Source: Pelosinus fermentans DSM 17108 (GTDB lineage: Bacteria; Bacillota; Negativicutes; DSM-13327). Taken from it: a DNA stretch of 64,000 nucleotides. Below are positions 8,011 through 62,753 of the stretch, piece after piece (position 1 is the stretch's first letter; the number at the start of each line of letters is the position of its first letter). Under the pieces are notes generated by a model. The model was given only the letters and a program-made list of their open reading frames with translations. It was not told where the DNA came from and ran no database searches. The stretch covers positions 1,058,001-1,122,000 of the forward strand of contig NZ_AKVN02000001.1 of assembly GCF_000271485.2 (NCBI RefSeq). Direction: 5' to 3'. The translations under genes and the position numbers were made by a program.

Positions 8011-8073
8011 ATGCCTCTTCTATACAAAATGTATGAATGAACATACAATTTGGCATAGTAAGAGGCATTTTTA
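8011..8073 (+). terminator. Rho-independent terminator after the UPF0597 gene
   Basis: ATGCCTCTT (8011-8019) pairs with AAGAGGCAT (8060-8068), with further pairing inside (ATGTATG/CATACA), and is followed by a run of T. It ends the MgtC-UPF0597 transcript. Confidence 0.8.
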
Positions 8074-8488
8074 TATAAATTGAGTAATATGTAGAAATAA
8101 ATAAAAATGAACCATTAAAAGTAAAAAAAATCCAACTAAAGATAGAACATATTTTTACGAATAGATGAAACTTAACAAAAAATGACAAAAAAACCCATGG
8201 TAAAATATTCAATAAATGTTATAATTAGAATATAACGACAATTTTTCCGGGATTTTCGATTGCGGAGGCGCTAATCGAGAAAAAGGGAAAAAATTATATT
8301 TTTTAGTATTATAAGGGGCGATTTTATGCTCGTGGAATGTTTATGTCTATTTGGAAGCAGTGACCTGCTTATCTGCCTGTAGTAGAGAGGTAAGACTTAG
8401 GTACAGGAAATTCATCTATTACTATAGCAATAAAATAGAAAGGGAGTTAAGAGAAAATATATAGTCTTGGACTAGAGATAAAGAGAAG
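8074..8488 (+). promoter_or_regulatory. Probable promoter and long structured leader of loaP
   Basis: No protein gene is visible. A TATAAT box at 8220-8225 is a candidate -10, but no good -35 is seen. Downstream the region is rich in inverted repeats: 8242-8292 (TTTTTCC and TTTTCGATT paired with AATCGAGAAA and GGGAAAAA), AAGCAG/CTGCTT at 8355-8370, and CCTGTA/TACAGG at 8376-8407. It does not match a riboswitch consensus I can recognise. A leader of about 500 bases ending in terminators suggests that loaP expression is controlled by attenuation, perhaps by LoaP itself. Confidence 0.45.
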
Positions 8489-8542
8489 TCCATTTATTCC
8501 TCGATATAAATCATTATTGAGGTATGAATGGATATCTTTTTT
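8489..8542 (+). terminator. Terminator in the loaP leader (attenuator-like)
   Basis: TCCATTTATTCCTC (8489-8502) pairs with GAGGTATGAATGGA (8519-8532), followed a few bases later by six T (8537-8542). It lies about 180 bases before the loaP start, so polymerase must read through to express loaP from an upstream promoter. A second, AT-rich hairpin (AATAAAAAAG 8581-8590 with CTTTTTTATT 8600-8609) follows. Confidence 0.7.
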
Positions 8543-8719
8543 GTCTCAAAGTGCTTTTAGGTGTCAGATTGGTAATAAAGAATAAAAAAGCTGATTCATC
8601 TTTTTTATTTCCTTCATGGGATGATTCTTCTAGCTGTATGATTTTAAGCTAAGCACAATATTCAAACAATGTGTGTTGTATAAAACGTTTCAAGAAGAAG
8701 AAGCTTTAGGAGGGGAACT

Positions 8720-9247
8720 ATGGACTGGTATGTGCTGCGCACTTTATGTGGAAAAGAAGAAGTAGTTTTATCAATCTTAAAAAAAATGGAAGTATTTTCA
8801 GATTTTGAAGTTTTTTGCCCTAAAAGGAGAATCGGATGGCGAAAAAGTGGACAGGTCGTCAGTATCATCAGACCTTTATTTGAGGGCTACCTATTTGTAT
8901 CGGTAAATAAAAAAGATATTGGTAAATTTGATCGCTTATTGCGTGTCTACAAAATTAATGTAGTCAAACTAGTGAGAAGTGCAGGGTCCTTAGTCCCCAT
9001 ATCCTATCAAGAACGAACGCTGCTTCAGGGGCTGATGGATTATGGAAGAATCGTTGAAGTAAGCAAAATAGAAAGAACAGAAGAAAAAATAAAGGTGATC
9101 GATGGGCCATTGCTGGGATTTGAGCATATGATTAAAAAATTTTCCAGCAGAAATCGGCGTATTACTGTAGAAGTACCAATATTGGAGGAAAAAAAGATCA
9201 TAGAGTTGGAAGGTATTTTGATAAATGCTAAAAAAGAGAATGTGTAA
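8720..9247 (+). CDS. loaP: LoaP-type NusG paralog, processive antiterminator
   Basis: 175 residues with a NusG N-terminal domain (MDWYVLRTLCGKEE at the start, FEGYLFVSV near residue 57) and a C-terminal KOW domain (IDGPLLGFEHMIKKF). It is a specialised NusG paralog rather than housekeeping NusG, as there is no secE/rplK context. The LoaP family was described in Bacillus, where it lets RNA polymerase pass terminators inside long polyketide operons. Here it sits directly upstream of about 54 kb of same-strand PKS-linked genes, and terminator-like hairpins flank it on both sides. AGGAGGGG precedes the ATG. Assignment to LoaP rather than RfaH or UpxY rests on the Firmicute and PKS context and overall length. 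Confidence 0.85.
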   Translation: MDWYVLRTLCGKEEVVLSILKKMEVFSDFEVFCPKRRIGWRKSGQVVSIIRPLFEGYLFVSVNKKDIGKFDRLLRVYKINVVKLVRSAGSLVPISYQERTLLQGLMDYGRIVEVSKIERTEEKIKVIDGPLLGFEHMIKKFSSRNRRITVEVPILEEKKIIELEGILINAKKENV

Positions 9248-9263
9248 GAGGAAGATAAAAGAC

Positions 9264-9315
9264 GATAAAAAATATTCAGCAAATCACATCTAGGATTTAC
9301 TGAATATTTTTTATC
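9264..9315 (+). terminator. Strong terminator directly after loaP
   Basis: A perfect 16-bp inverted repeat, GATAAAAAATATTCAG (9264-9279) and CTGAATATTTTTTATC (9300-9315), with the T-run in the right arm. It lies between loaP and the pump/PKS genes and is a natural target for LoaP-dependent readthrough. Confidence 0.75.
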
Positions 9316-9507
9316 TTGTGACATTTTATCTGCTTATCTTATTTAGTTTTCAGTTTTAAAGATTCGTATCAGACAGGAAGGTCTTCTTTATGTTAAGCAT
9401 ACTGCAGAAGAGCGAAACTTAAAGAAACACCGGCAGGCACCTCGCTGAAGTGACTATGATACAGCTGGATGAATGTAAAACTCCAGCTGCAAACTAGGAG
9501 GTTGGAT
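9316..9507 (+). promoter_or_regulatory. Leader between loaP and the RND gene, with hairpin before the ribosome-binding site
   Basis: CAGCTGGA (9462-9469) and TCCAGCTG (9482-9489) form a perfect 8-bp stem seven bases before the AGGAGG site (9496-9501). AGCGA (9411-9415) can pair with TCGCT (9442-9446). The region could hold a LoaP recruitment hairpin or translational control; no promoter is convincing. Confidence 0.4.
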
Positions 9508-12500
9508 GTGCGTACTTTTTTTATCGATCGTCCGAATTTTGCTATTGTTTTATCACTGTTTATTGTGATTGTTGGCTTAATTGCAGCATTTCACTTGCCT
9601 ATTTCCCAATATCCCCAGATTGTGCCTCCAAGAGTGAATGTCAATACGAGCTATTCTGGTGCAAATTCGGAAGTAGTGGAACAGTCAATCGCTCAACTGC
9701 TTGAACAGCAGATTAACGGAGTTCAAGATATGGTAGAAATGCAATCTACCAGCCAGGATAACGGGTATTATTCGCTGAATGTCAAATTTGAATTAGGTAA
9801 AAATGAAGACATGTCATTAGTGCAAATCCAAAATGCAGTAGCCCAGACCAATGCAAATATGCCTCAAGAAGCGCAGCAGAATGGAATCATTGCCCGTAAA
9901 GTAACACCGGATACGGTTTTATATTTTGTACTGTGGTCTCCAAATGGAACTTATGATCGTGTACTTATGAAAAACTATGCTACGATCAATATAAATGATG
10001 AGATCAGGCGCATAAAAGGTGTGGGGAATGTCAACGAATATGGAGCTGATTTTGGAATGCGGATTTGGCTGCAGCCAGATAAGATGGCTCAGCTAGCAAT
10101 CACAACAAGTGATATATATGATGCCATTCAGAAACAGAATGTGCAAGCGCCAGCAGGGATCATCGGTCAGGCACCTTATGCCCCAGGGCAGGAATATCAG
10201 TATACTGGTCGAGTAAAAGGAAGATTAACAGAAGAACGGGAATTTGAGAACATCATCCTTCGAGCCAAATCCGACGGTTCGCTGGTACGACTTAGTGATG
10301 TCAGTAAGGTTCAATTAGGCGGCAGGCATTATGCTTATTCCAGTGACTTTAACGGGAAAGATGCTGTGCTGTTTGGTATACAGCTAACTCCAGATGCCAA
10401 TGCTTTTGAGACAGTTGCTCAGGTAAAAAAAGTAATCAAGCGTGCACAGGCGGAATTTCCTTCTGATCTACAATGCAATATTGGTGTTGATAATACTAGT
10501 TATGTGGATGAATCCTTAAGAGAAGTAATTAAAACTTTTGTGGGATCGATTTTATTAGTACTTTTCATTGTATTTATATTCTTAGGCAGCTGGAGGGCCA
10601 CTCTCATTCCGATGCTGGCAATTCCCGTTTCGCTAATTGGGACGTTTGGTGCATTTTTACTGTTGGGCTTTTCGATTAATACGCTAACTTTATTTGCTAT
10701 GGTATTGGCTGTAGGATTAGTTGTGGACGATGCGATTGTCGTGGTTGAGGCAGTTGAACGCCATATACGTTATAGCAAATTGTCTCCCAGAGAGGCGACA
10801 AAACAGGCAATGGGCGAGGTGACCAGACCGGTTATAGCGATTGCTTTTGTACTGGCGGCTGTGTTTATTCCCGTAGCCTTTATGGGAGGGACAGTAGGAG
10901 TATTATACAAACAGTTTGCTTTAACGATTGTAGTATCAATGCTGCTGTCGGCCTTTGTGGCACTTACTACGACGCCGGCACTTTGTGCAATGCTCTTAAG
11001 GCCGTATAACCCCAAGGATTATACTGGGGCATTAGGAAAAATATTAGAAGGTTTTAATACGTGGTTTGAACGAATGCTTGAGAAATATGAGGTTGGTGTT
11101 GGATGGGCTATTCAAAAAATACGTCTCTGTCTGATGCTGTTATTAGTTTTGATCATTATGATCGGTATGCTGATTCATGTTCTGCCATCTTCTTTTGTGC
11201 CTGGTGAAGATCAGGGAAATTACATTGCGGCTATAAGTTTGCCGGAAGGGGCAACTATGAGTCGTACAAGGGAGGCAGCCAATAAAGTATGTGAAATCTT
11301 TGCAGATATACCTGGTGTTGAATCTACTACCGTATTTACTGGGTATGATGTATTGGCGGATGCTGGAAAACCGAATGCTGCAGCAATCTTTGTCCTGCTC
11401 AAACCTTGGTCTGAGCGGCAAGAACCAGAACTGCAGATTGAAAATCAGATACGCACTGCGTTCATGAAAACAAGTCAGATTTCAGAAGCAATGATATTGG
11501 TTTTCGAACCGCCTACACTTCCAGGGGTTGGTACCTATGGCGGATTTACATATATGCTTCAGGATAAGACCGGTGGCAGCATTGAGAATCTAGATGATAT
11601 TTCTCGAAAGTTCATAGGTGCGGCCAGGCAAAGGCCGGAAATTGGACTGGTGTATTCCACTTTTCGAACGGATACTCCCGGCTACCGTTTTGAAGTGGAC
11701 CGTGAGAAGACGATGAAACTGGGAATACAGGTAAAAGACGTATTTAATGCTTTGCAAACCTTTCTAAGCGGTTTGGAGGTTAATGATTTTAATCAGTTTG
11801 GGCGTACTTATAAGGTGATTATGCAGGCAGAAGCCCAATATCGAAGTAGCGTAGATGCTACACGGTTCTTATTCCTGCGCAGTGCTGCAGGAGAAATGAT
11901 ACCTCTTAACACGCTGTTAAAAACAGTGCCGATTAATGCGCCAACTGTTATTAAACGATTTAACGGCTTTAGAGCAGTACAGATTGGAGGAAATCCTGCG
12001 CCTGGCTATAGTTCTGGACAAGCTATGGCGGCATTGGAAGAAGTGGCAGCTCAAATCCTGCCGCCGGGTTTTAGTTATGAATGGGCCGAGCAAAGCCGGG
12101 ATGAAAAAATTGCAGGTGAGCGTGCTCCCATCATATTTACTTTTGCACTGTTATTTGTATTTCTTTGTTTGATAGCACTTTATGAAAGCTGGATTGTACC
12201 TTTTGCAGTTCTCTTATCAGTCCCTACAGCCATTTTTGGATCGTTCCTGTTCCAATATGTAAGAAATCTTGAAAACAATATTTATATGCAGATTGGGCTG
12301 ATAATGCTCATTGGGCTAACTGCCAAAAATGCGATTCTAATTGTAGAATTTGCTAAAGTTAGAGTGGATCATGGCATGGACCCTGTTCATGCGGCAATTG
12401 AAGCGGCAAAGCTTCGCTTACGTCCCATAGTAATGACTTCAATGGCTTTTATACTTGGATGCATCCCTCTGGCAGTGGCTACTGGTGCCGGCGCCGGTGC

Positions 12501-12660
12501 CCGTATTTCTATGGGAACTTCGGTAATAGGAGGGATGCTTATGGCTACAATTATGGGGATTTTTATTATTCCGGTGTTATATGTGGCTGTTGAACGGATT
12601 GCCAAGAGATTGACAGGCAAGAAGCAAAAAAAGCAAGATCCGTCTATTCCTATAGGCTAA
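9508..12660 (+). CDS. RND-family (HAE1) efflux pump, inner-membrane transporter
   Basis: About 1050 residues, the usual AcrB/MexB length, proton-driven. It starts FFIDRPNFAIVLSLF and shows the LPISQYPQIVPP porter entry, the TM4 proton-relay pair in VGLVVDDAIVVVE, and the TM10 Lys in LTAKNAILIVEFAK. GTG 9508 is chosen: AGGAGG at 9496-9501 is correctly spaced for it, whereas ATG 9469 adds 13 residues atypical of the family and lies within a hairpin. No membrane-fusion protein or outer-membrane channel gene is next to it, which is unusual. Its place between loaP and the PKS genes suggests export of, or self-protection against, the polyketide. An RND pump implies an outer membrane. Confidence 0.93.
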   Translation: MRTFFIDRPNFAIVLSLFIVIVGLIAAFHLPISQYPQIVPPRVNVNTSYSGANSEVVEQSIAQLLEQQINGVQDMVEMQSTSQDNGYYSLNVKFELGKNEDMSLVQIQNAVAQTNANMPQEAQQNGIIARKVTPDTVLYFVLWSPNGTYDRVLMKNYATININDEIRRIKGVGNVNEYGADFGMRIWLQPDKMAQLAITTSDIYDAIQKQNVQAPAGIIGQAPYAPGQEYQYTGRVKGRLTEEREFENIILRAKSDGSLVRLSDVSKVQLGGRHYAYSSDFNGKDAVLFGIQLTPDANAFETVAQVKKVIKRAQAEFPSDLQCNIGVDNTSYVDESLREVIKTFVGSILLVLFIVFIFLGSWRATLIPMLAIPVSLIGTFGAFLLLGFSINTLTLFAMVLAVGLVVDDAIVVVEAVERHIRYSKLSPREATKQAMGEVTRPVIAIAFVLAAVFIPVAFMGGTVGVLYKQFALTIVVSMLLSAFVALTTTPALCAMLLRPYNPKDYTGALGKILEGFNTWFERMLEKYEVGVGWAIQKIRLCLMLLLVLIIMIGMLIHVLPSSFVPGEDQGNYIAAISLPEGATMSRTREAANKVCEIFADIPGVESTTVFTGYDVLADAGKPNAAAIFVLLKPWSERQEPELQIENQIRTAFMKTSQISEAMILVFEPPTLPGVGTYGGFTYMLQDKTGGSIENLDDISRKFIGAARQRPEIGLVYSTFRTDTPGYRFEVDREKTMKLGIQVKDVFNALQTFLSGLEVNDFNQFGRTYKVIMQAEAQYRSSVDATRFLFLRSAAGEMIPLNTLLKTVPINAPTVIKRFNGFRAVQIGGNPAPGYSSGQAMAALEEVAAQILPPGFSYEWAEQSRDEKIAGERAPIIFTFALLFVFLCLIALYESWIVPFAVLLSVPTAIFGSFLFQYVRNLENNIYMQIGLIMLIGLTAKNAILIVEFAKVRVDHGMDPVHAAIEAAKLRLRPIVMTSMAFILGCIPLAVATGAGAGARISMGTSVIGGMLMATIMGIFIIPVLYVAVERIAKRLTGKKQKKQDPSIPIG

Positions 12661-12750
12661 TGCAATTGTAGAAATACGTATCAGAATTTTGCTGCAGAGG
12701 TTGAACGAAAGAGATAAGAAAAAACATATCGTTGGAAAGGAGAAAAATGC

Positions 12751-13707
12751 TTGAAAAAATCCAAAATATTTATGTTTTCAGGTCAAGGATCACAGTATTA
12801 TCGTATGGGCAGGGAGCTGTATGCCACGAATATAACGTTTCACCATTGGATGTCTAGAATGAATCACATAATACAGCAAAATGCTGGAATTAACATTCTA
12901 GAAGAAATATACAACCCAGCAATACATAGATCTACCGTATTTGATAAGCTGTCCTACACGCATCCGGCTATTTTTATGGTGGAATATTCCTTAGCACGAG
13001 TATGCATAGAAAATGGGATTGAACCGGATTATGTGTTAGGAGCAAGCTTAGGAGAATTTGTTTCAGCAGCGATTACTGGCATTTTATCATTGGAAGCAGC
13101 GTTAGAATGTCTATTGATTCAGTCTGCGTTAATCCAGAGTGATTGTCGGCCAGGCAGTATGACAGCGATTGTTCATCATCCTGAATTATATAAGCAAACT
13201 TCTGTTATCCATGACCATTTTGAGCTTGCTGCGATCAATTATTCTTCCCATTTTATTATATCCGGCAATTATCGTGATGAATTGATGACTGTAGAAGCAT
13301 ATTTAAAGAGGGAGGGAATTATTTTTCAGACACTTCCTGTAAGGTATGGCTTTCATTCTGCCAATATTGAACCGATAGAGAGGGAATATAAGAAAAAATT
13401 AAGTAATTTAACATTCAATCATCCTCAGGTACCTTTCATATCATGTGTATCGGCTGGCAGCGTTGACGATATTGATTCGGAGCATTTTTGGAATGTACTT
13501 CGGCAGCCGATTGATTTTCAAAAAACGATACAAAGGCTGGAAGCAGGTAATCAGTTTATGTATATTGATTTAGGTCCATCTGGAACATTGGCTAATTTTG
13601 TGAAAAGAAACCTAACTCCTGACTCGGAGTCAAAAGTGCATACTATTTTAACTCCTTTTGGACAGGATGTCAGGAAACTGCAAAAAGTAATAGAATCATT
13701 AAATTAA
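12751..13707 (+). CDS. Stand-alone acyltransferase-like protein, probable proofreading acyl hydrolase (PksD/PedC type)
   Basis: 318 residues of the FabD/AT fold: FSGQGSQYYRMG at the start, nucleophile motif GASLGE, and the downstream catalytic His in YGFHSANIEP. The Arg that normally binds the malonyl carboxylate (QKRG in the following gene) is replaced here (IQSALIQ). Together with the second AT-like protein next door, this fits the pairing in trans-AT clusters of one true malonyl transferase and one AT-like acyl hydrolase that clears stalled acyl chains from ACPs. It starts with TTG at 12751, 8 bases after AAAGGAG; an ATG at 12747 is out of frame. Hydrolase versus transferase is inferred from the missing Arg. 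Confidence 0.82.
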   Translation: MKKSKIFMFSGQGSQYYRMGRELYATNITFHHWMSRMNHIIQQNAGINILEEIYNPAIHRSTVFDKLSYTHPAIFMVEYSLARVCIENGIEPDYVLGASLGEFVSAAITGILSLEAALECLLIQSALIQSDCRPGSMTAIVHHPELYKQTSVIHDHFELAAINYSSHFIISGNYRDELMTVEAYLKREGIIFQTLPVRYGFHSANIEPIEREYKKKLSNLTFNHPQVPFISCVSAGSVDDIDSEHFWNVLRQPIDFQKTIQRLEAGNQFMYIDLGPSGTLANFVKRNLTPDSESKVHTILTPFGQDVRKLQKVIESLN

Positions 13708-13729
13708 ATGATGAAAGGGGTTATTGTGC

Positions 13730-16096
13730 ATGATTACATATGTTTTTCCTGGTCAGGGTTCCCAGAGTAAAGGGATGGGGGGATCACTTTTTGATGAATT
13801 TAAGGAATTGACGTTAAAAGCAGATGAGGTTCTGGGGTATTCAATTAAGCAGCTTTGTCTGGAAGATGCAGAGTCCAATTTAGGTGAAACACAATATACT
13901 CAGCCTGCTTTGTATGTAGTGAATGCATTAGGTTATCTTAAAAAAGTTAAAGATACAGGAAAAGAACCCGATTATGTTGCTGGCCATAGCCTGGGGGAAT
14001 ATAATGCCTTATTTGCTGCAGGAGCATTTGATTTTACGACGGGATTAAAACTTGTACAAAAGAGGGGACAACTTATGAGCCGCGCTGTTGGAGGCGGCAT
14101 GGGAGCAGTAATTGGTCTAAATGAAGAACAAATATCCGATGCTTTAAAGAAAAATAATATGCTGACGATCGATATTGCAAATTATAATTCGCCTACGCAG
14201 ATTGTAATTTCTGGATTAAGAAAAGATATTGAAGATGCACAGCCTGTTTTCGAAGGAATGAAGGATGTGCAAATGTTTCTTTTACTGAAAACAAGCGGCG
14301 CATTTCATTCTCGCTATATGCAGGAAGCCAGAAAGGAATTTGAAATATTCTTGCAGAATTTTACATTCTCTGATCTGCGCATCCCTGTAATTTCAAATGT
14401 TTATGCCAGACCCTGTAAACAATTCGCTGTAAAGCAAAACTTAATTGAACAGATCACTCAACCCGTTAAATGGACTGAAAGCATTCGATACCTGATGGGA
14501 CTTGGAGAAATGGAATTCGTAGAAATTGGATCTGGTAATGTCTTAACAGGATTGATTAGACGAATTAAAAGAGAAGCACAGCCATTAAAACTTACAGATA
14601 TTGAAAGCAAGAATGATTTGAAAAAAGATGATCTTTCTATACCGCCAGAGAGAGCATCTTTTTTAATTGATACAGAAACAGCTGAGGTACATAATCAGAA
14701 AAGTAATAATGAAAAAGCAAAAGAAAATAATAGAAAATTTGAAGGAATATCCTCATCATCTTTGGGAAGTGCTGCGTTTAAGAAAGACTATAATATTCAA
14801 TATGCCTATATAACTGGTGCAATGTACCGGGGAATTGCTTCAAAAGAAATGGTAGTAAAAATGGGGAAGGCAAAAATGATGGGGTTTCTTGGAACTGGCG
14901 GTCTAAACGTATCACAAATTGAAGCAGCCATTCAATATATTCAAAAGGAGCTTTCCGAAGGACAGGCCTATGGGATGAATTTGCTCCATAATCCAATTGA
15001 TCCTAAGAAAGAAGAAGAAATAGTAGATCTTTATTTGTTGCATGGTGTGAAAACTTTGGAAGCAGCGGCTTTTATCAGTATTACTCCAGCCTTGGTTAAA
15101 TACCGGGCCAAAGGAATGACGCGAAATCCTCAGGGCGAAGCTATTGCATTCAACAGGATCATTGCTAAAGTATCACGGCCGGAAGTGGCAGAAACATTCT
15201 TTAGCCCTGCTCCGGAGCGGATTGTTGCGAAGCTGCTGGCAGAAAAGAAAATTACAGAGGAAGAAGCAGATCTATTAAAGGCGGTTCCTATGGCTGATGA
15301 TATTTGTGCCGAAGCCGATTCGGCAGGGCATACAGATGGAGGAGTAGCTTCTGCGCTAATACCGGCAATGATTACGCTGCGAGATCAGATGATGAGAAAA
15401 TATCAATACCAGAAAAAAGTACGAGTTGGCGCAGCCGGAGGCATTGGGACTCCTGAGGCTGCAGCTGCGGCCTTTATTATGGGGGCAGATTTTATCGTGA
15501 CGGGTTCCATTAATCAGTGTACAGTAGAGGCATCTACAAGCAGCAATGTAAAAGATCTGCTGCAGCAGATGAATGTTCAGGATACGGATTATGCGCCTGC
15601 AGGAGATATGTTTGAAATGGGTGCCAAAATTCAGGTATTAAAAAAGGGACTATTCTTTCCGATACGGGCGAATAAATTGTATGAATTGTATCGGAGGTAT
15701 AATTCATTGGACGAGATTGATGAAAAAACTAAGGTACAGATACAGGAAAAATATTTTAAAAAAAGTTTTAGCGATGTATATCAAGATATTAAATCCTTTT
15801 ATCCTGCTGAAGAAATCGAAAAAGCAGAACGAAATCCTAAGCACAAAATGGCCCTCATTTTTCGGTGGTATTTTGGTTATAGTACTCGATTGGCTTTAGG
15901 AGGAAGTGAGGAAAATAAAGTTGACTATCAAATACATTGCGGACCTGCTCTCGGGGCATTCAATCAATGGGTTAAAGGAACAAATTTAGAAGATTGGAAG
16001 CAGAGGAACGTAGATGTGATTGCAGTAAAATTAATGAATGAGACTGTAGAATTATTAAATCAGCGCTATAAAAACTTCTTGGAGAATTGCAATTAA
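13730..16096 (+). CDS. Trans-acting malonyl transferase fused to PfaD-like enoyl reductase (PksE type)
   Basis: 788 residues from ATG 13730, 9 bases after AAAGGGG. Residues about 1-290 are an acyltransferase with all key parts: FPGQGSQ, GHSLGE, the carboxylate-binding Arg in VQKRGQLM, and GAFHS, whose Phe fits malonyl specificity. After a charged linker (about 290-345), residues about 350-780 are an FMN-dependent TIM-barrel enoyl reductase of the PfaD type ([45 protein letters not shown]). Since none of the PKS modules has its own AT, this protein should supply malonyl units to every ACP. The ER acts in trans; which module it serves is not visible. Confidence 0.93.
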
Positions 16097-16163
16097 TAGA
16101 TGGAACCCTAATGCCATCTTAACGAAGGAAGAGAGAGCAGAAGAATAAGAGGAGGTTCTTTTT

Positions 16164-17159
16164 ATGATACGCTGTGACAAATGTATAATGCCGGAAACAA
16201 ATCCCCATGTTGTTTTAGATGAAAAAGGGGTATGCAATATCTGCAATCAGCAGAAAGACAGGAAGGATGAGGATACCAGCAGCAGCCAAGACAAAAATTT
16301 TGAAGTGTTAAAAGCTAAAATAGAAAAATCCAGATCCAAAAATACTGGGAAATATGATTGTGCAGTGGGGCTTTCCGGCGGTAAGGATAGTACGATGACC
16401 TTATATCTGGCTAAAAAAGAATTAGGATTGAATCCATTGGCAATTTTTATTGATAACGGGTTTGCTCTTGAAGAAATGTACTATAATATACAGACTGTTA
16501 CCAGTAAATTAGGAGTAGATCTCATTGTTTATAAGCCAGGTGAAATTAAAGATTTCTTAATCTACCTTTTGAAATCGAAGAAGCCCATATATTATTGCAG
16601 GCCCTGTCATGAATTGCTTGATGTGTATGTCAGGGATATAGCATCCAAACACGGGATAAACTTAATCCTGGGGGGATACACTAAAGGACAGGAGTATGTT
16701 AAGAATACGGAGTTATACTGGTTATTTGATATATCTGATAAAAGTATTCATGATGAACTTAGCAAAGAACCTGATTTTAAAGATATCTTATCTATTTTAG
16801 ATGACCATGCGCTATATCTATATGAGACGTTTGAATCTATGGTTCAAATAAACCCTTTTCAATATATGAAATATGATGATGAAAGCATAATTAAATTTCT
16901 TACCCGGGAATTTAACGTCAGATTTCCTAAGAAGAGTTGGCCGGCAGATTCAACAAATTGCTTTTTTAACTACGTGTCTCAGCATTTAGCAGTAAAAAAC
17001 TTTGGTTATTCACAGCATGAGACTGAACTAAGCACTCTCATCCGCAAAGGTGAATTGAGCAGAGAGAGGGCACTTCATATTATTAATGCACCAATTCCCA
17101 TGGAATATGTTGAGGATGCCCTTAGCAGACTTGGCTTAAAATATGAGGACGTAATATAA
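16164..17159 (+). CDS. PP-loop (N-type) ATP pyrophosphatase, amidotransferase-like; candidate oxazole cyclodehydratase
   Basis: 331 residues. An N-terminal zinc knuckle (CDKCIMPE ... GVCNIC) is followed by the PP-loop SGGKDST at about residue 72 and a further CRPCHE motif at about 150. This combination resembles N-acetyl sugar amidotransferases, but no LPS or pseudaminic acid genes are nearby. The gene immediately precedes a PKS gene whose first module builds N-formylglycine. To my knowledge, oxazole-forming pathways primed by N-formylglycine (conglobatin, oxazolomycin) also encode a PP-loop protein proposed to cyclise that end, so a similar role is the leading guess. Thioamide or amide formation is an alternative, as PP-loop enzymes also activate carbonyls for sulfur or nitrogen attack. 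A strong terminator hairpin follows. Confidence 0.75.
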   Translation: MIRCDKCIMPETNPHVVLDEKGVCNICNQQKDRKDEDTSSSQDKNFEVLKAKIEKSRSKNTGKYDCAVGLSGGKDSTMTLYLAKKELGLNPLAIFIDNGFALEEMYYNIQTVTSKLGVDLIVYKPGEIKDFLIYLLKSKKPIYYCRPCHELLDVYVRDIASKHGINLILGGYTKGQEYVKNTELYWLFDISDKSIHDELSKEPDFKDILSILDDHALYLYETFESMVQINPFQYMKYDDESIIKFLTREFNVRFPKKSWPADSTNCFFNYVSQHLAVKNFGYSQHETELSTLIRKGELSRERALHIINAPIPMEYVEDALSRLGLKYEDVI

Positions 17160-17170
17160 GGAATTTTTTG

Positions 17171-17216
17171 CAGTTATAACCTGCCTGGCTGAAAGCCGGC
17201 AGGTTATAACTGTTTT
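17171..17216 (+). terminator. Strong terminator hairpin inside the PKS operon
   Basis: CAGTTATAACCTGCC (17171-17185) pairs perfectly with GGCAGGTTATAACTG (17198-17212), topped by GGCT/AGCC with a 3-base loop and followed by TTTT. It separates the PP-loop gene from the first giant PKS gene with no obvious promoter after it, as expected of a terminator overridden by LoaP. Confidence 0.8.
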
Positions 17217-17281
17217 CTAAACACGTAGGATAGTACGAAATGACGATCAGTCAAAGAAAATCGATTGAGGAGAGGGATCGT

Positions 17282-39069: not shown

Positions 39070-39091
39070 AACTGATAGGTAGGAGGCAAAT

Positions 39092-53707: not shown

Positions 53708-53727
53708 AGAGGGGGAGAAAAAGAGAA

Positions 53728-56700
53728 ATGGAGAGTCAATTATCGTCTTTATATAAGCAGATAAAAGATAAAAAAATAAGCCGAGAAGATGCGATAAAGC
53801 AGATTCAAGAGTATAAAGCAAAGCATACACAGCAACACATACTTCCCATCCTAGAAAATCATGCGTTATCTAAGACTGCTACTCTGATAGAGGAAATACA
53901 GACTGTTTTGCTGCAGATGGCATCTGAATTATCCAGGGTAACAATTGAAGATATTGATCTAGAGGCCCAGTGGAATGAAAACGGGCTGGATCAGGTTATG
54001 CTGGCTGCATTAGCGGATCGGCTAAATCAGGACTATAAGCTTGAACTGCTTCCGAGCATATTTTATACACAATTAACCATACAGAGCTTTGCCGAATACT
54101 TGGTTAATGAACATTGCGATATGCTTGCTGGCCAGATGCAAGCAAAAGAATTATCACATCCCATAACTGAGAAAAGCAAAGTAATGACAGAATTTGAAGA
54201 AGAGCTGCTGAAGGAAAAAGCAATACGTTATTTCAAGCAGCAATTATCTTCTGTTCTTAAGCTTCCGGTGCATCGAATAGACGAAAATGCGCAAATGGAA
54301 AAATACGGGATCGATTCGATTATGGTTATGCAGTTAACCAATGAGTTAGAAAAAATATTTGGTTCTCTGCCAAAAACATTATTTTTTGAATACGAGAGTC
54401 TCCACCAGATAACCGACTACTTCCTTGCCGCTTATCGCACTGAGCTGATCAGAATTTTAAATGTGGAAGACGGGACTGCCATTTCGGCTAAATCTGACAG
54501 CAGTACTGGTGCAGAAAAGAAAAACTCATTGTTTAGGAGTTCCAGGAAGCTGCGTCCTCCAGAGTTTAGTGAAGGCAGCATTCGGCAAAAAGCAGCAGCG
54601 GGGGTGGATGTTGCGATCATTGGCGTTTCTGGACGTTATCCTGGTGCAAGAAATCTTCAGGAATATTGGAGAAACTTGCGGGATGGCAAGGATTGTATCA
54701 CAGAAATTCCTAAAGATCGCTGGGATCATAGTTTATATTTTGATGAAGACAAGAATAAATTTGGTAAAACCTATAGTAAATGGGGTGGTTTTTTAGAGGG
54801 TGTAGACCAATTCGACCCTCTCTTCTTTAATATTTCGCCGCGGGAAGCCCAATTTATTGATCCACAGGAACGATTGTTTCTGCAATGTGTATTTGAAACG
54901 CTGGAAGATGCAGGATATACCAGGCAAAGCCTTGGATTAAAAGAGAATTTTAATATTGAAGGAAACGTAGGAGTTTATGTAGGAGTGATGTATGAAGAGT
55001 ATCAGCTCTACGGTGCTCAGGAACAAATCCAGGGAAGGCCCATTGCTCTCAGCGGAAATCCATCGTCGGTTGCCAATCGAGTATCCTACTTCTTTAATTT
55101 TCATGGACCTAGTATGGCTATTGACACCATGTGTTCTTCTTCTTTGACAGCAATTCATTTAGCATGCCAAAGTTTGCAGCAAGGAGGATGTGAACTTGCA
55201 ATTGCAGGTGGTGTAAATGTCTCAATTCATCCCAACAAATATCTGATGCTGGGACAAGGAAAGTTTATTTCAAGCAAGGGAAGGTGTGAAAGCTTCGGTC
55301 AGGGAGGTGATGGCTATGTACCCGGTGAAGGAGTTGGCGCTGTACTGCTCAAACCGCTGACGCAAGCCATTGCTGATGGTGATAATATATATGGAATTAT
55401 TAAAGCAACAGCAATCAATCATGGCGGGAAAACGAATGGCTATACAGTTCCTAATCCCAATGCGCAAGCTCGGGTTATTAATCAGGCTTTTGCTGAAACT
55501 AGAATCAACCCCAGAATGATCAGCTATATTGAAGCACACGGTACGGGAACTTCTTTAGGAGATCCTATTGAAATCGCAGGACTGAGTAAATTTTTTAAAG
55601 AGCATACCAGAGACAAACAATTTTGTGCAATTGGATCTGCCAAATCAAATATTGGGCATTGTGAAAGTGCAGCCGGCATTGCAGGAGTGACTAAAGTATT
55701 GCTGCAGCTTAAATATCGCCAGCTAGTACCATCATTGCACTCCAAAACACTAAACCCGAATATCGATTTTAACAATACGCCATTCTTTGTTCAGCAAGAA
55801 CTTGCAGAATGGAAAAGACCATTGATTAACATACATGGAAAAACAGAAGAACAGCCGAGAATTGCGGGTATTTCATCTTTTGGTGCGGGAGGATCAAATG
55901 CTCATGTTGTGATTGAAGAGTATATCCCGGAGAAGCAAAATCCGGTTATACATCAGATTTCACAGCAGCATCCAGCAATGATTGTATTATCAGCCAAAAA
56001 TGAAGAGCGTCTTTTAGAAAAGGTAAGACAATTGCTGCTTATGATAAAGGAAGTGGGGTTCTTTGATGCAAATCTGGCGGAGATAGCTTATACGCTGCAA
56101 ATTGGCCGGGAAACAATGGATGAACGTTTGGCGATTGCAGTGAATTCTATTAAAGAGCTGGAAGAAAAATTGAGTCGCTTTTTGGAAAGAGATGAGGATA
56201 TCGAAAATTTGTACCGAGGGAAAAATAAGAACAATAAGGAAATATTGGCTGCTTTAGGCCCGGATGAAGATATGGCAGTTATGATTGATTCTTGGATGAG
56301 AAAAGGAAAATATACGAAGCTTCTCGAGGTTTGGGTGAAAGGACTAATCATTGACTGGAAAAAGTTATATGGAAAGGCAAGGCCTCGCAGAATCAGTCTG
56401 CCCACATATCCTTTTGCCAGAGAAAGATATTGGGTACCTGAAATTGAAACAGCGGCTGCCAATCCTATTCTGACCAGTACTGGAAATGCACGAATGCTTC
56501 ATCCTCTGCTTCATCAGAATACATCGGATTTAGCAGAGCAGCGTTTTACCTCTACATTCTCGGGGAAAGAAACCTTCTTCGTGAATCATGTTAAAGGATT
56601 TAGAGCTCTGCCGGAGGCTGCCTGCCTTGAAATGGTGCGAGAGGCTTTACAGCAGGCTGCTGGAAGGCTACAAGAGGGACAGAAAATTTTGCTTACCAAT

Positions 56701-59700
56701 ATCAGGTGGATGTTTCCTATTGGTGTAGATGAATCTTTGCTTGAAGTACATATTGGACTAATACCTGAGGACAGCGGCGAAATTATCTTTGAAGTCTATA
56801 GCCAGGCCGGAGGCAGAGAGGAAGAAACGATCGTATACAGCCAAGGAACTGCTGTATTTAGTGGAGTTTCTGCAGAGAATATAGAATTGGACTTGGCTGC
56901 TATTCAAGAGCAGTGCAGGAATCATTTCAATGCCAGTCAGTATTATGAGGCATTGAGAAATGCCGGATATAATTATGGTCCGGAATACCAGGGAGTAGAA
57001 GCTGTATATGTCGGAAGAGAGCAAGTATTGGCAAAGCTGGTGATACCTTCCTGCATCGCAGAGACCCACCCGCAATTTATGCTGCATCCCAGCCTGCTGA
57101 ATGCTGGGATGCAAGGGACAATCGGTTTCACATTGAATTCAGAAGACAGCAGGCTAATGCTGCCAGCTGCCTTGCAGGAACTTGAAATTCTTGGTCCTTG
57201 CTCGCCTGCCATGTGGGCTTGGATTCGTTACAGTGAAGGCAGTGCTGCTGCTGATCCATTACAACAGTTTGATATTGATCTGTGCGACACCCAGGGTAAG
57301 GTTTGCATACGTATGAAAGGTTTGGAAATGCAAGGGGATACAGAAGAAAGCACGTTTGGCGATTCTGTAGAGGTGGCAAGACAAAGCCTGGCAGTTCCTA
57401 AAAAACAGGAAGCTTTTGAAATGATGACATTTGAAGAAACCTGGCAGGAGAAAGCTTTGTCAAATCGTGGTCCGGCTAAGATCAGAACACTGGTTTGTTT
57501 TCTGTCCAATGCAGACAATCAAAACAAGGCAGCAGAAGAGCTTCAAACCCTTGATCCGCAAACAAGAATACTCTTCATCTCTCAACATCCAAATCATACA
57601 GCATCCTCCCATATCATTTATTCCATTTCCCGCAAAGATCCCTCTGCCTATGAACAGACATTTCAAAGCATCCGGGAGGAGTACGGCGAGATAGACGGGA
57701 TGCTCTATCTGTGGTCAATAGAAGATGCCACATGTATTGAAGACTATTCCGTCATTGTGTATCTGCTGCAAAGTATTGCTGCCGTAAAACTAAAAGCCGG
57801 ACGAGTCTTGCTGGGAGCACAGTTTGAAACAGGGCTGGAACGCTGCTATCTGGATTCCTGGATTGGTTTTGAACGCTCTTTAGGGCTTGTTCTGCCCAAT
57901 ACGCAAGTAGCTGTGATGTATCAAGAAAAAAGCGTCCGAGACCGGAAAGCGGCCATGGAAGATTGGCTGACCAAACTCTGGTCAGAACTGCAGACCGAGA
58001 AACTCCAAAGCGTTTTCTACCAAGGGGGAAAACGCTATGTATACCAGATTCAGGAAACGTTTCTAGAGACAGGCAGCAGCCTTTTACAGGCAGGAGGAAC
58101 CTATCTCATAACAGGAGGGTGCGGAGGACTGGGCTTTCTATTTGCCAGGCACTTTGCCAAAACCCATGGGGCAAATCTAATTCTAACAGGCAGATCAGCC
58201 CTGGATGAGGAAAAGCAGGCAAAAATCAGGGAATTAGAAGCACTAGGCAGCCATGCCCTATACCTGCAGGCAGACAGCTGCGATGTAAGCAGTATGAAAA
58301 CCGCTTTGGGAGAGGCGAAAGCAAAATATGGCAAGATTCATGGAGTGATTCATGCAGCGGGTCTGGCAGGCAGCCAAAGTCTATTTGAAAAAGACCTGGC
58401 AGGATTCAGGACGATAATCGAACCGAAAATTAAAGGCACTCTGGTGCTGGATGAAGTGCTTCAGGAAGAGGCACTTCATTTTATGTGCTATTTTTCCTCT
58501 TCCTCTGCCATCCTAGGGGATTTTGGTTCTTGTGACTATGCCATCGGCAATCGTTTTCAGATGGCGTATGCTCACTATCGGCAGGAAAAGCAGCTGGAGG
58601 GAAAGGCATATGGCAAGAGTCTGGTGATAAACTGGCCTCTATGGAAGGATGGAGGAATGGGAGTCGGTGAGGAAGAGAACAGCAAGCTCTATTTAAAATC
58701 CAGCGGCCAGCGTTTTTTAGAGGCCGAAGAAGGTACGGTTATGTTTGACTGCATTCTGTCCCAAAGTACAATCCAGCAGTTAGTATTAGTGGGGCAGCCC
58801 AGTCGGATAAAACGATTTTTAGGCTTAACTCAGGATGATGTTTCTCTTTCCCTCGTAAGCCTTAATTCACCGTCGAGAGGAAGACGGCCAGAAATGAAAG
58901 GCTTAAATCTGGAACAGTGTGTTGAATGGGACTTGAAAGAATATATCAGCCAATTGCTGAAGATTCCGTTCAATAAGCTGGATAAAGAAGACAACCTGGC
59001 AGACTTTGGCTTCGATTCCATTAGTCTGGCGCAGCTTGCTGCCTTATTGCGCAGCCATTATGGAATTGAAGTGACAGCAACACTGTTCTTTGGATATTCT
59101 ACGATTGAAAAACTGACCCAGTATTTTGTAACTGACTATCGTAATATCATGGATGAATTCTATAAAGAAGAAGCTGTTTGGCAGCCTGTGGAGCAAAAGC
59201 ACTCTACAGAAAAAGCAGTAGTGGGTCCCAAATTCCAAAATACCAGATTTGCTAGAAGGAGAGAAAAAAATGCTGAGGATACAAAACAGCAGGGTTCTAT
59301 AGCAATTGTAGGTATGAGCGGTAAATTTCCTATGGCTGAAGATGTGCATGAATTATGGGAAAATATTGCGGAAGGCAGGGAATGTATTGCTGAGATTCCA
59401 AAAGAGCGCTGGGACTGGCAGGAATTTTATGGAGACTCTGTCAAAGAATTCAATAAAACCAAAATAAAATGGGGGGGCTTTATTACTGAGATTGATGAGT
59501 TTGATTCATTGTTCTTTAAAATTTCGCCAAAAGAAGCTGAAAGCATGGATCCTAAACAGCGTATGCTCATGACATTTGTCTGGCGGGCCATGGAAGATGC
59601 AGGGATTACCCCAAAAGAAATGTCAAAGAAATCTACGGGAGTCTTTATCGCAGCATGTCCCAGTGAATATACGGATTCGGTGTCGATGCAGAATAACAGT

Positions 59701-62691
59701 TTGGCACTGACATCTACTACGCCGACAGTGCTTCCTGCCCGTATTTCCTATGCCTTAGATTTGCAAGGCCCCAGCGAATATTGCGATACAGCTTGTTCCT
59801 CCACGCTTGTTGCATTGCACCGGGCAGTACAAGCTATTCAAAATGGTGAATGTGAACAGGCCATTGTAGGTGCTGTCAATTTACTGCTTTCGCCTTTAGG
59901 ATTTGTTGGTCTTGATTCATTGGGGTATCTCAGCCCGGACGGAAAGGTAAGATCATTTCAGGCGGATGCTAATGGATATGCGAGGAGCGAAGGAGTCGGC
60001 GTACTCATTATAAAACCCTTGCAGCAAGCGATTAAAGACAAGGACCAAATTTTTGCAGTCGTGAAGGGAACGGGGGTTTCTCATGGCGGCAAAGGGATGT
60101 CGTTAACTGCCCCAAATGCAAATGGAATGAAAGCGGCTATGATTCAGGCATACCAAGCCGCAAAAATTGACCCGCGGACAGTGTCTTACATCGAAGCTCA
60201 CGGGATTGCCTCTCTCTTAGGAGATGGTATTGAAATTGACGCATTGAAGGCAGGTTATCAGGAACTTGTGGCACGGCAAGCTTCAGAACATGTACAAAAT
60301 CAGCACGTATGTCATATCAGCAGTTTGAAGCCATGCATTGGCAATGCTGAAGTGGCTTCAGGAATGGCTGCATTGATAAAAGTCATTTCAGCCATGCGCA
60401 ATCGGATAATTCCGGGTATTGCTGGATTTACTGCTTTATCCGATCAGATTTCTTTAGAAGGGAGTCCGTTTCAAATTGCCGCGGGCAACTATGAGTGGAG
60501 TGCGTTAAAGAATATTCATGGCAGCAGTTTGCCTCGGCGTGCCAGCATCAATGGCTACGGATTTAGCGGGGTTAATGCACATGCAGTCCTGGAGGAATAT
60601 GTTCCTAAGCGGGAAAAGGCGATTCTTCCAGAAGAAAATTTACCTTATATAGTGCCTTTATCAGCAAAAAACAGAGCTCGTCTTGATGATTATGTTCGAA
60701 AGCTCCTTCTATTTCTAAAAGCAAGAGATGGGTCAGCGGCGGATTCTGCCCTGCATTTAGCCGATGTAGCCTATACCTTTCAAGTAGGGCGCGAAGCAAT
60801 GGAAACCAGAATCGCCTTTATTGTCAAAGACATAAAGGAGCTGATGGAAAAGCTGGCGAACTTCATCAATGGAACAGAAAATATTGAAAATTGTTTTATC
60901 GGAGATACTAAGCAAAGAATTGCTGCTCAGTTATTTGGGACAGATGATGATTTTGACGAGTTGCTTCATAAGTGGATTACAAAGGGAAAAATGAAAAAGG
61001 TGGCAGAACTATGGAGTAAGGGGATTTCCATCGAATGGGAATTGCTCTATCAGGATAGGAAACCCCAACGAATCAGCTTGCCAACCTATCCCTTTGCGAA
61101 GGATCATTATAAGATTTTTTCACAACAGGAAAAAAAATCTTCGGTTATTATCGAAAAGGCAGATATACAATCCGGAAATGAGAATCCTGTTCAAAGTAAT
61201 CAGAAGGATAATTTGGAATATATTACCAGACTAGTTCAGGATACATTAGGGCTGCCTGCAAATGTTGCAATTGATCCTCAGAGCCAATTAAGAGAATTTG
61301 GAATGGACTCGATATCCGGGATTCAAATACTGGAAAAGATAAGGCAGAAACTAGGTGTCCAATTAGACGGCAGAAAATTTTTTACGGAATTTACGCTGCA
61401 AAGCATTATCAGTCAATTAGATGCAGTATCCCAGCAGGATACAACTCCTCTATCACCATGGGAAATGGACAAAAAACTACCTATGAACGTAACATTAAAA
61501 TTGAAGAAAACTTCCTTTACGCATACTTCCTTGCCGGAGAACATCCTTTTGACTGGAGCAACTGGACTAATAGGGGCTTTTCTGTGCAATGAAATTCTAC
61601 AGCAGACGTCTGCAACTGTCTATTGCCTTGTTCGCGCCGAATCAGCATCTTTAGGATTGCAGCGTCTACAAGAAAATTTAAATAAATTTGCATTGTGGCA
61701 ATCGGATTATCATTCCCGAATTATTCCTGTTTTAGGAGATATAACAATGCCCCAATTAGGAATAGAAGAAATGATATATGACAAATTAAGTCATTCCATT
61801 GATGTGATTTATCATTGCGCCGCACTTCCCAACCATATATTAAATTATTATTCACTGAAAAGTGCGAATGTGAATGGTACCTTAGCGATGATAGAATTTG
61901 CGGCAAAGGGAAAAGTTAAACCAATACATTTTACGTCAACTATTGCAGTTTGCTCTCAGATGGATGGCGATGCCATATTGCCGGCACATCAAGAGGAAAC
62001 TTTACTGGAACAAGGCAAGAATTTGACTAGTGGTTATGCACAGTCTAAATGGGTCTCAGAGCATCATCTCATGCAAGCTCAAGAAAGAGGGATTCCGGTT
62101 ACCGTTTTCCGATGTGGAGAAATTACTGGATCTAGTCAGACGGGATATGGAATTGCTGAAGATATGGTGCATAATTTTTTAAAGATCTTTAGTGAAGTCA
62201 AAGTAATTCCAGATTGGGATGAAGGTGTAATGGATATCGTTCCCATTGACTATGTAAGTAAAGTAATTTTAACAGTGAGTCAGCAAAAAGACTGCTACGG
62301 GAAAATTTATCATTTAAATCATATACGGCCATTTCCAGTCAGAGATTTTTTTACCTATCTAGAGAGAAGAAATCCTTTGCTCACAAAAACGACCTTTGAT
62401 GAATGGGCGGATTCTTGTTTACGCTATATTAGCGAATTAGCGGAAAGTCCAGTGAAAACGATCATGTTAGGATTTTTTACAAAACTTGATTCCGGTCCGA
62501 GAATATTTGAGTACTATTTTACTGATTTGGGCCTGAAAAATGAGAACCTTCAAAAGGTCTTGCAAAATCTTGACATTCACTTTCCACAGATGAACGATCA
62601 ATGGTGGGAAAAGTGTATGAAGCAAATGCTGTTATTTGGACAAAAAGACACCCAGCTGGTAGATGGGGTAAAAGTTTCAGCATCTGTTTAA
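53728..62691 (+). CDS. PKS4: terminal trans-AT PKS with non-elongating KS and thioester reductase
   Basis: About 2987 residues. Window positions: docking helices 53728-53830; ACP10 53870-54130, with Gln (53992-53994) replacing the phosphopantetheine Ser (GLDQ); ACP11 54210-54460 (GIDSI); KS9 54605-55920 (Cys, His, His present); DH8 56485-57350 (one residue short in the His motif, NAGMQ for DxxxQ); KR7 57420-58830 (A-type); ACP12 58880-59160; KS10 59290-60600 with Cys kept but the second catalytic His replaced by Asn (CIGNAE at 60343); ACP13 61210-61440; reductase 61530-62640 (LLTGATGLIG, YAQSK), an NADPH-type thioester reductase that releases an aldehyde or alcohol. No thioesterase. ATG 53728 follows GAGGGGGAG; GTG 53704, overlapping the PKS3 stop, is the alternative. 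Confidence 0.92.
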   Translation: MESQLSSLYKQIKDKKISREDAIKQIQEYKAKHTQQHILPILENHALSKTATLIEEIQTVLLQMASELSRVTIEDIDLEAQWNENGLDQVMLAALADRLNQDYKLELLPSIFYTQLTIQSFAEYLVNEHCDMLAGQMQAKELSHPITEKSKVMTEFEEELLKEKAIRYFKQQLSSVLKLPVHRIDENAQMEKYGIDSIMVMQLTNELEKIFGSLPKTLFFEYESLHQITDYFLAAYRTELIRILNVEDGTAISAKSDSSTGAEKKNSLFRSSRKLRPPEFSEGSIRQKAAAGVDVAIIGVSGRYPGARNLQEYWRNLRDGKDCITEIPKDRWDHSLYFDEDKNKFGKTYSKWGGFLEGVDQFDPLFFNISPREAQFIDPQERLFLQCVFETLEDAGYTRQSLGLKENFNIEGNVGVYVGVMYEEYQLYGAQEQIQGRPIALSGNPSSVANRVSYFFNFHGPSMAIDTMCSSSLTAIHLACQSLQQGGCELAIAGGVNVSIHPNKYLMLGQGKFISSKGRCESFGQGGDGYVPGEGVGAVLLKPLTQAIADGDNIYGIIKATAINHGGKTNGYTVPNPNAQARVINQAFAETRINPRMISYIEAHGTGTSLGDPIEIAGLSKFFKEHTRDKQFCAIGSAKSNIGHCESAAGIAGVTKVLLQLKYRQLVPSLHSKTLNPNIDFNNTPFFVQQELAEWKRPLINIHGKTEEQPRIAGISSFGAGGSNAHVVIEEYIPEKQNPVIHQISQQHPAMIVLSAKNEERLLEKVRQLLLMIKEVGFFDANLAEIAYTLQIGRETMDERLAIAVNSIKELEEKLSRFLERDEDIENLYRGKNKNNKEILAALGPDEDMAVMIDSWMRKGKYTKLLEVWVKGLIIDWKKLYGKARPRRISLPTYPFARERYWVPEIETAAANPILTSTGNARMLHPLLHQNTSDLAEQRFTSTFSGKETFFVNHVKGFRALPEAACLEMVREALQQAAGRLQEGQKILLTNIRWMFPIGVDESLLEVHIGLIPEDSGEIIFEVYSQAGGREEETIVYSQGTAVFSGVSAENIELDLAAIQEQCRNHFNASQYYEALRNAGYNYGPEYQGVEAVYVGREQVLAKLVIPSCIAETHPQFMLHPSLLNAGMQGTIGFTLNSEDSRLMLPAALQELEILGPCSPAMWAWIRYSEGSAAADPLQQFDIDLCDTQGKVCIRMKGLEMQGDTEESTFGDSVEVARQSLAVPKKQEAFEMMTFEETWQEKALSNRGPAKIRTLVCFLSNADNQNKAAEELQTLDPQTRILFISQHPNHTASSHIIYSISRKDPSAYEQTFQSIREEYGEIDGMLYLWSIEDATCIEDYSVIVYLLQSIAAVKLKAGRVLLGAQFETGLERCYLDSWIGFERSLGLVLPNTQVAVMYQEKSVRDRKAAMEDWLTKLWSELQTEKLQSVFYQGGKRYVYQIQETFLETGSSLLQAGGTYLITGGCGGLGFLFARHFAKTHGANLILTGRSALDEEKQAKIRELEALGSHALYLQADSCDVSSMKTALGEAKAKYGKIHGVIHAAGLAGSQSLFEKDLAGFRTIIEPKIKGTLVLDEVLQEEALHFMCYFSSSSAILGDFGSCDYAIGNRFQMAYAHYRQEKQLEGKAYGKSLVINWPLWKDGGMGVGEEENSKLYLKSSGQRFLEAEEGTVMFDCILSQSTIQQLVLVGQPSRIKRFLGLTQDDVSLSLVSLNSPSRGRRPEMKGLNLEQCVEWDLKEYISQLLKIPFNKLDKEDNLADFGFDSISLAQLAALLRSHYGIEVTATLFFGYSTIEKLTQYFVTDYRNIMDEFYKEEAVWQPVEQKHSTEKAVVGPKFQNTRFARRREKNAEDTKQQGSIAIVGMSGKFPMAEDVHELWENIAEGRECIAEIPKERWDWQEFYGDSVKEFNKTKIKWGGFITEIDEFDSLFFKISPKEAESMDPKQRMLMTFVWRAMEDAGITPKEMSKKSTGVFIAACPSEYTDSVSMQNNSLALTSTTPTVLPARISYALDLQGPSEYCDTACSSTLVALHRAVQAIQNGECEQAIVGAVNLLLSPLGFVGLDSLGYLSPDGKVRSFQADANGYARSEGVGVLIIKPLQQAIKDKDQIFAVVKGTGVSHGGKGMSLTAPNANGMKAAMIQAYQAAKIDPRTVSYIEAHGIASLLGDGIEIDALKAGYQELVARQASEHVQNQHVCHISSLKPCIGNAEVASGMAALIKVISAMRNRIIPGIAGFTALSDQISLEGSPFQIAAGNYEWSALKNIHGSSLPRRASINGYGFSGVNAHAVLEEYVPKREKAILPEENLPYIVPLSAKNRARLDDYVRKLLLFLKARDGSAADSALHLADVAYTFQVGREAMETRIAFIVKDIKELMEKLANFINGTENIENCFIGDTKQRIAAQLFGTDDDFDELLHKWITKGKMKKVAELWSKGISIEWELLYQDRKPQRISLPTYPFAKDHYKIFSQQEKKSSVIIEKADIQSGNENPVQSNQKDNLEYITRLVQDTLGLPANVAIDPQSQLREFGMDSISGIQILEKIRQKLGVQLDGRKFFTEFTLQSIISQLDAVSQQDTTPLSPWEMDKKLPMNVTLKLKKTSFTHTSLPENILLTGATGLIGAFLCNEILQQTSATVYCLVRAESASLGLQRLQENLNKFALWQSDYHSRIIPVLGDITMPQLGIEEMIYDKLSHSIDVIYHCAALPNHILNYYSLKSANVNGTLAMIEFAAKGKVKPIHFTSTIAVCSQMDGDAILPAHQEETLLEQGKNLTSGYAQSKWVSEHHLMQAQERGIPVTVFRCGEITGSSQTGYGIAEDMVHNFLKIFSEVKVIPDWDEGVMDIVPIDYVSKVILTVSQQKDCYGKIYHLNHIRPFPVRDFFTYLERRNPLLTKTTFDEWADSCLRYISELAESPVKTIMLGFFTKLDSGPRIFEYYFTDLGLKNENLQKVLQNLDIHFPQMNDQWWEKCMKQMLLFGQKDTQLVDGVKVSASV
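57158..58731 (+). repeat. Repeat A copy 3: DH end and A-type KR block
   Basis: Near-identical to 44364-45937 at an offset of 12794. It differs by a few local clusters, for example about 57925-57955, where a short stretch of linker is replaced. Homology stops before the ACP. Confidence 0.88.
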
Positions 62692-62711
62692 AAAGGGCGC
62701 ATAGTTAAAGC

Positions 62712-62753
62712 TGATTTCCTCCCAAATACGGGTGTGTTTTTGGGAGGAAATCA
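62712..62753 (+). terminator. Hairpin between PKS4 and the PPTase gene
   Basis: A perfect 15-bp stem, TGATTTCCTCCCAAA (62712-62726) with TTTGGGAGGAAATCA (62739-62753), loop of 12. No U-tract follows, so it may be a pausing or processing site rather than a true terminator. Confidence 0.55.

Follow-up and report, generated by a model that had tools for sequence, protein, structure and literature searches.

The window analysed here is a stretch of 64,000 nucleotides, positions 1,058,001-1,122,000 of the 5.03 Mb genome of Pelosinus fermentans DSM 17108, and contains a megasynthase operon in which, according to the open reading frame list, all genes from 8720 to 63570 lie on the + strand over a span of about 55 kb. 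The operon comprises, in order, loaP, an AcrB pump, two discrete acyltransferase genes, a WbuX-like amidotransferase, four trans-AT PKS/NRPS megasynthases and a phosphopantetheinyl transferase (PPTase). An unrelated gene set precedes it, with its own terminator at 8011-8068, inside the span 8011-62753 that the first-pass annotation had delimited. The features of the leader and of the operon are the following, in window coordinates:

8217-8225, + strand: extended -10 promoter TGTTATAAT (consensus match only; no good -35)
8236-8303, + strand: LoaP-associated RNA element with two helices (covariance model R1, 69.8 bits; covariation)
8242-8248 with 8286-8292, + strand: helix P1 of the element
8253-8261 with 8273-8281, + strand: helix P2 of the element
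8262-8271, + strand: tip of the element, GCG-GAGG-CGC, followed at 8293-8298 by the conserved ATTATA/GTYATA
8310-8353, + strand: second module (short hairpin with a U-rich loop, TGG-(about 8 nt)-TATG, U-rich stretch)
8480-8545, + strand: leader terminator between the RNA element and loaP (-31 kcal/mol, z -7.9, then TTTTTTG)
8720-9247, + strand: loaP-like gene, NusG paralog of the W40 subfamily, 175 aa (Pfam NusG, 39 bits)
9264-9315, + strand: AT-rich hairpin 3' of loaP, possible terminator (-21.7 kcal/mol, z -6.7)
9469-12660, + strand: AcrB-type RND efflux pump (Pfam ACR_tran, 1062.8 bits)
12751-13707, + strand: discrete acyltransferase, trans-AT (NCBIfam, fabD-type match)
13724-16096, + strand: acyltransferase-enoylreductase, FabD + PfaD (NCBIfam)
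16164-17159, + strand: WbuX-like amidotransferase (NCBIfam, 173.5 bits, under the cut-off of 203.2)
17171-17216, + strand: strong hairpin before PKS1, candidate internal terminator (-32.3 kcal/mol, z -8.3)
17240-28549, + strand: PKS1 (formyltransferase, AMP-binding, KS, DH, KR, ACP)
28489-39069, + strand: PKS2 (KS, DH, KR, ACP)
39092-53707, + strand: PKS3
53704-62691, + strand: PKS4, with a C-terminal thioester reductase domain
62712-62753, + strand: hairpin without U-tract before the PPTase gene (-26.2 kcal/mol, z -6.0)
62767-63570, + strand: phosphopantetheinyl transferase (Pfam ACPS)

This layout bears out the earlier description of a NusG paralog heading about 54 kb of same-strand genes, with loaP at 8720-9247 and the + strand kept throughout to 63570. 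The N-terminal end of PKS1 is formed by the formyltransferase and AMP-binding domains, and PKS2 probably starts further 3' than the listed TTG. At the threshold used, the four megasynthases are devoid of integral acyltransferase domains, so the system is of the trans-AT type. The corresponding cluster of P. fermentans JBW45 (L049) places an acyltransferase gene directly after loaP, without the AcrB pump of the window, and another gene follows its last PKS; the cluster ends are exchanged between the strains.

The protein encoded by loaP finds its best NCBIfam family in LoaP, NF033641, at 114.8 bits, under the curated cut-off of 125. It is 94-98% identical to the LoaP-like proteins of P. fermentans and P. 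propionicus, and shares about 24-30% identity with those classic LoaPs that were compared. The AlphaFold model (pLDDT 91) comprises a NusG-type N-terminal domain and a C-terminal KOW-type barrel in the LoaP arrangement, and its best match is the LoaP-RNA complex 8f5g (E 8.5e-17, TM 0.80-0.84, full length), which is also the best sequence match, at about 28% identity; the fold match to RfaH and NusG is much weaker. In the phylogenetic tree, the 15 proteins of the subfamily, defined as those at least 50% identical to the window protein, group into a single long-branched clade (99/98), with weak deeper joins. All 15 display W-R at the positions that correspond by alignment to E40/R41, where nearly all classic LoaPs show E-R or E-K. 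In Bacillus velezensis LoaP, mutants of E40 and of R41 lost difficidin and macrolactin, and both residues are expected to contact RNA, E40 being implicated in its recognition (PMC12691694). Since the subfamily has W in place of E40, its contact with RNA must differ. The assignment to LoaP-type NusG paralogs made at first sight can therefore be kept as to best family and fold, but with a score below the cut-off, W for E40 and a leader devoid of a UNCG hairpin: a simple search of the leaders of both classic and window-type LoaPs reveals no UNCG hairpin near loaP, and a shared-k-mer search of the classic LoaP leaders discloses no common motif.

The alignment of five Pelosinus loaP leaders discloses a conserved block around TTGCGGAGGCGC, the part in which the RNA element was first seen. 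The consensus of the whole element reads AAAAATTCTCC, spacer, P2 arm, TGCGGAGGCGC, P2 arm, spacer, GGAGAA, n, and GTYATA, with the tip GCG-RAGG-CGC near-invariant across sites. The covariance model R1 served to align 21 sites, and in this alignment 38 cells are changed on both sides, compared with 20.4 expected in shuffles, 10 pairs show two-sided change versus 6.3 expected, and the covariation score is 0.369 versus 0.247; the observed values were reached in none of 500 shuffles, and sliding the pairing abolishes the signal. The R1 alignment being fitted to the structure, the signal was also checked by a test independent of any alignment, in which the P1 and P2 arms of a site pair better with each other than with arms swapped between sites in 20,000 of 20,000 permutations, a result that holds after removal of the near-identical Pelosinus copies. 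RNAalifold, run on the raw MAFFT alignment, recovers the tip helix only, because the helix arms are misaligned there. The tip itself is compensated at one site (GUG-AAGG-CAC), and at another it begins AGCG, so UNCG is not a conserved feature of the element. Judged by this covariation, the element is a structured RNA, and no Rfam family matches it beyond chance. It is a previously undescribed folded RNA that had been overlooked in the first-pass annotation, as had the promoter and the pause-like hairpin. A changed residue at the RNA-recognition position of the protein, together with a changed RNA, may reflect a specificity switch.

The distribution of the element follows that of the protein. 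The LoaP subfamily is encoded in 12 of the 380 Negativicutes genomes searched, and R1 matches occur in exactly those 12 and in none of the 368 others; the positive result in the 12 is in part built in, because most of the sites trained R1, but the lack of matches elsewhere is not. Four sites lie outside the training set, namely G003:60479, G295:4459171, G295:4521666 and G295:4677625. Elsewhere in the phylum, a covariance-model search of 397 genomes, 11 of which encode a classic LoaP, finds no copy of the element, and the window site is the only R1 match in its own genome. A hold-out model, R2, trained on other genera with no Pelosinus site, (i) recovers the window element at 40.2 bits (E 4.3e-5 in the genome), (ii) finds 7/7 sites of the five LoaP-bearing Pelosinus genomes, with no further match at E up to 1, and (iii) returns nothing in three Pelosinus congeners that do not have the gene.

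In most of the 12 genomes the element lies 5' of loaP, at a distance of some 110 or 215 nt, or of some 450 nt in Pelosinus; elsewhere it is located immediately 3' of the gene, on the divergent strand, or at a remove of several kb. The loaP-linked sites are followed by NRPS, PKS and thioesterase genes, and those away from loaP, several of them found by the model only, head KS-DH polyketide synthases, acyltransferases or a PPTase; at all sites examined, what the element heads is either loaP or biosynthetic genes. The view that the element merely reflects conservation of loaP leaders was rejected, since copies also occur past the 3' end of loaP, on the divergent strand and in trans. As many as six sites occur in a single genome, G295, all 36 of whose PKS dehydratases are encoded downstream of, and on the same strand as, an element. 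Two genomes with NRPS clusters, G314 and G318, carry the element without any PKS dehydratase, so it is not just a mark of PKS loci. G079 has a PKS that adjoins a classic LoaP and lacks the element, and PKS groups elsewhere in the same genome have it. In the window genome, a second PKS near 4.42 Mb (G000:C1:4417873-4422666, minus strand), with an orthologue in JBW45, also lacks it.

Classic LoaP genes coexist with the W40 type in JBW45 (L078 / L007) and in G079 (L037), and these classic genes are not accompanied by the new RNA element; L007 adjoins an apparent NRPS gene and L037 a PKS. A second LoaP-like gene of JBW45, which heads another cluster, has the block around TTGCGGAGGCGC with different flanking helices.

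The RNA element stands between a candidate promoter and a second module. The extended -10 promoter lies 11 nt 5' of the element and places the predicted transcription start near 8232. Its motif TGnTATAAT is kept in 5/5 Pelosinus leaders with n varying (T, A, G), and recurs at a matching distance from the element in L076, from another genus. A general scan for promoters and terminators gave promoters no better than chance and missed both the extended -10 motif and the leader terminator. In other genera, TTCGACA, the reverse of the Spo0A box (TGTCGAA), is located 71-100 nt upstream of the element at five loci (L043, L044, L045, L046 and L047) against a background of about 0.016 per 160 nt, which suggests transition-state control of the promoter at those loci; the window leader has no such box.

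On the 3' side, most of the 19 sites compared are followed by a module with the consensus U-rich-loop hairpin, GG, about 8-9 nt, ATGC and a U-rich stretch. The strict pattern occurs after 9 of these 19 sites, versus about 0.001 expected per region, a figure that serves only as a guide because the pattern was written after seeing the alignment; the Pelosinus module is divergent and misses the strict pattern. The order of a hairpin, about 11 nt and a U/G step is one that we take to resemble hairpin-stabilised pauses, and from it we infer pausing at 8310-8353.

Further downstream, the four hairpins that the first-pass annotation had listed as terminator-like are all more stable than shuffled sequence (z -6.0 to -8.3, where z compares the fold energy with that of shuffled sequence), but they differ in what follows the stem and in conservation. 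The one before loaP, given there as 8489-8542, is well supported: the hairpin, 8480-8542, is kept in 5/5 Pelosinus orthologues and, from its stability and the following TTTTTTG, is a good predicted intrinsic terminator. The hairpin before PKS1 likewise stands as a candidate, being very stable, kept in both relatives checked, and followed by a short U-tract, TTTTCT or TTTTTT. By comparison, the fold at 9264-9315 is real and may terminate, but P. propionicus does not have it and the P. fermentans JBW45 copy is degraded. Finally, 62712-62753 is a real hairpin followed by AAAAGAG, and is therefore not an intrinsic terminator; at the matching junction JBW45 carries an unrelated hairpin ahead of a different gene.

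Among relatives, a best-hairpin test finds a strong hairpin (z -3.8 to -8.7) between the element and the first gene in 13/13 of the longer leaders tested, with U-tracts that are good in Pelosinus and variable elsewhere, several in G295 and G079 being poor, and the short loaP leaders of several genera (about 50-70 nt) have no clear terminator. The leader hairpins of G295 and G079 (L039, L041, L073, L074 and L075) have similar arms, for instance GGAACCCCCTCTTTAAGG, often without a U-tract, and resemble copies of one mobile or recurrent hairpin. In the window leader, the stretch 8600-8700, between the terminator and loaP, is strongly conserved among the five Pelosinus.

Taken together, these observations make it very probable that the cluster is subject to LoaP-type antitermination directed by this RNA, and thus with a new RNA specificity, the binding and the readthrough being what we infer from comparative sequence data. 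Transcription would start near 8232, and the first RNA made would fold into the element at 8236-8303, to which the W40-subfamily LoaP would bind and from which it would join the elongating polymerase, the predicted pause at the 8310-8353 hairpin giving time for loading. The modified polymerase would then read through the leader terminator (8480-8545) and the hairpins further on, notably that at 17171-17216, and transcribe the approximately 55 kb of the operon. With loaP placed first after its own terminator, the arrangement would constitute a positive feedback switch, in which little LoaP leads to early termination and some LoaP turns the whole cluster on. In relatives, elements ahead of other megasynthase operons would place these under LoaP control in trans. 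The original proposal that LoaP switches the cluster by passing four terminators is thereby retained in its essence, as the best-supported reading, which the comparative evidence, with the co-occurrence of element and subfamily, makes far stronger than the weak clues it was first drawn from, but not in its number of terminators, one of the hairpins being no terminator and another not being conserved.

Other explanations account for parts of the evidence. That all sites examined head biosynthetic genes or loaP would also suit a riboswitch, or the target of another protein, with the link to LoaP reflecting no more than shared residence in megasynthase clusters. We regard this as improbable, given that PKS loci without a W40 LoaP lack the element even within one genome, as in G079 and at the second PKS of the window genome, that the element also heads the NRPS clusters without PKS dehydratases in G314 and G318, and that its presence matches the LoaP subfamily in 380/380 genomes. 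The poor U-tracts of several hairpins invite a different thought, that LoaP acts in the manner of RfaH, by ribosome coupling or by blocking Rho, with the leader hairpins as mRNA stabilisers, and RfaH does work in such a way (PMC12691694). On the other hand, covariation marks the recognition element as RNA, whereas ops, that of RfaH, is DNA; in Pelosinus, the hairpin of the leader has the makings of a good intrinsic terminator in 5/5 cases; and the window protein matches the fold of RfaH far less well than that of the LoaP complex, all of which leaves an RfaH-like action unlikely.

Regulation by promoters alone, for instance Spo0A-dependent ones, with little contribution from LoaP, appears the least probable alternative of all: the Spo0A-box-like motifs upstream of five sites speak for it, and a second promoter could lie in the conserved part of 8545-8720, but these motifs belong to other genera, the window leader is devoid of one, and both the covarying RNA and the strict co-occurrence with LoaP would be left unexplained. 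Antitermination guided by the RNA element thus remains the preferred reading. Its wider form, to which we lean with more reserve, is that a NusG paralog with changed RNA specificity constitutes a second LoaP-RNA code, made up of W40, the GCG-RAGG-CGC hairpin and a dedicated pause hairpin, which exists alongside classic LoaP in one cell (JBW45, G079) and serves several megasynthase operons in trans.

Nascent leader RNAs that mark one transcript for terminator readthrough are also represented by the lambda N/nut system and by the EAR and put RNAs. Compared to these, the window element displays no sequence similarity (no Rfam match), and its partner is a NusG paralog. Within that family, LoaP is described as the sole bacterial member for which recognition of a specific RNA is known, that RNA being a UNCG hairpin (PMC12691694). 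The leader of the dfn cluster of B. velezensis comprises a hairpin, a pause and a terminator, and LoaP readthrough has been reconstituted on it, binding of LoaP to the hairpin countering NusA at the terminator; the bacillaene cluster of the same organism is outside LoaP control (PMC12691694). The Pelosinus operon resembles the dfn and mln systems in (i) a NusG paralog beside long megasynthase operons, (ii) a leader with a small RNA hairpin, a pause-like module and a terminator before the first gene, as in dfn, (iii) further hairpins inside the operon, and (iv) another PKS of the genome outside the system, here one that lacks the element. It differs in that its RNA has two helices, the GCG-RAGG-CGC tip and a 3' GTYATA, whereas the dfn RNA, known here by description, is a UNCG-loop hairpin, and in that loaP lies inside its own target operon. 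RfaH is likewise a NusG paralog that modifies the polymerase on few long operons; it is recruited by the DNA element ops and opposes Rho, whereas the window combines an element that covaries as RNA with an intrinsic leader terminator.

If a recognition RNA unrelated to the known one is paired with a protein clade of its own, LoaP recruitment can evolve new specificities, and the W40 and classic systems would provide natural protein-RNA pairs to compare. Such a pair may also supply candidate orthogonal parts for the expression of very long biosynthetic operons. For the little-explored outer-membraned Firmicutes, the element may serve as a sequence tag for LoaP-controlled antibiotic clusters, including those that do not adjoin loaP.
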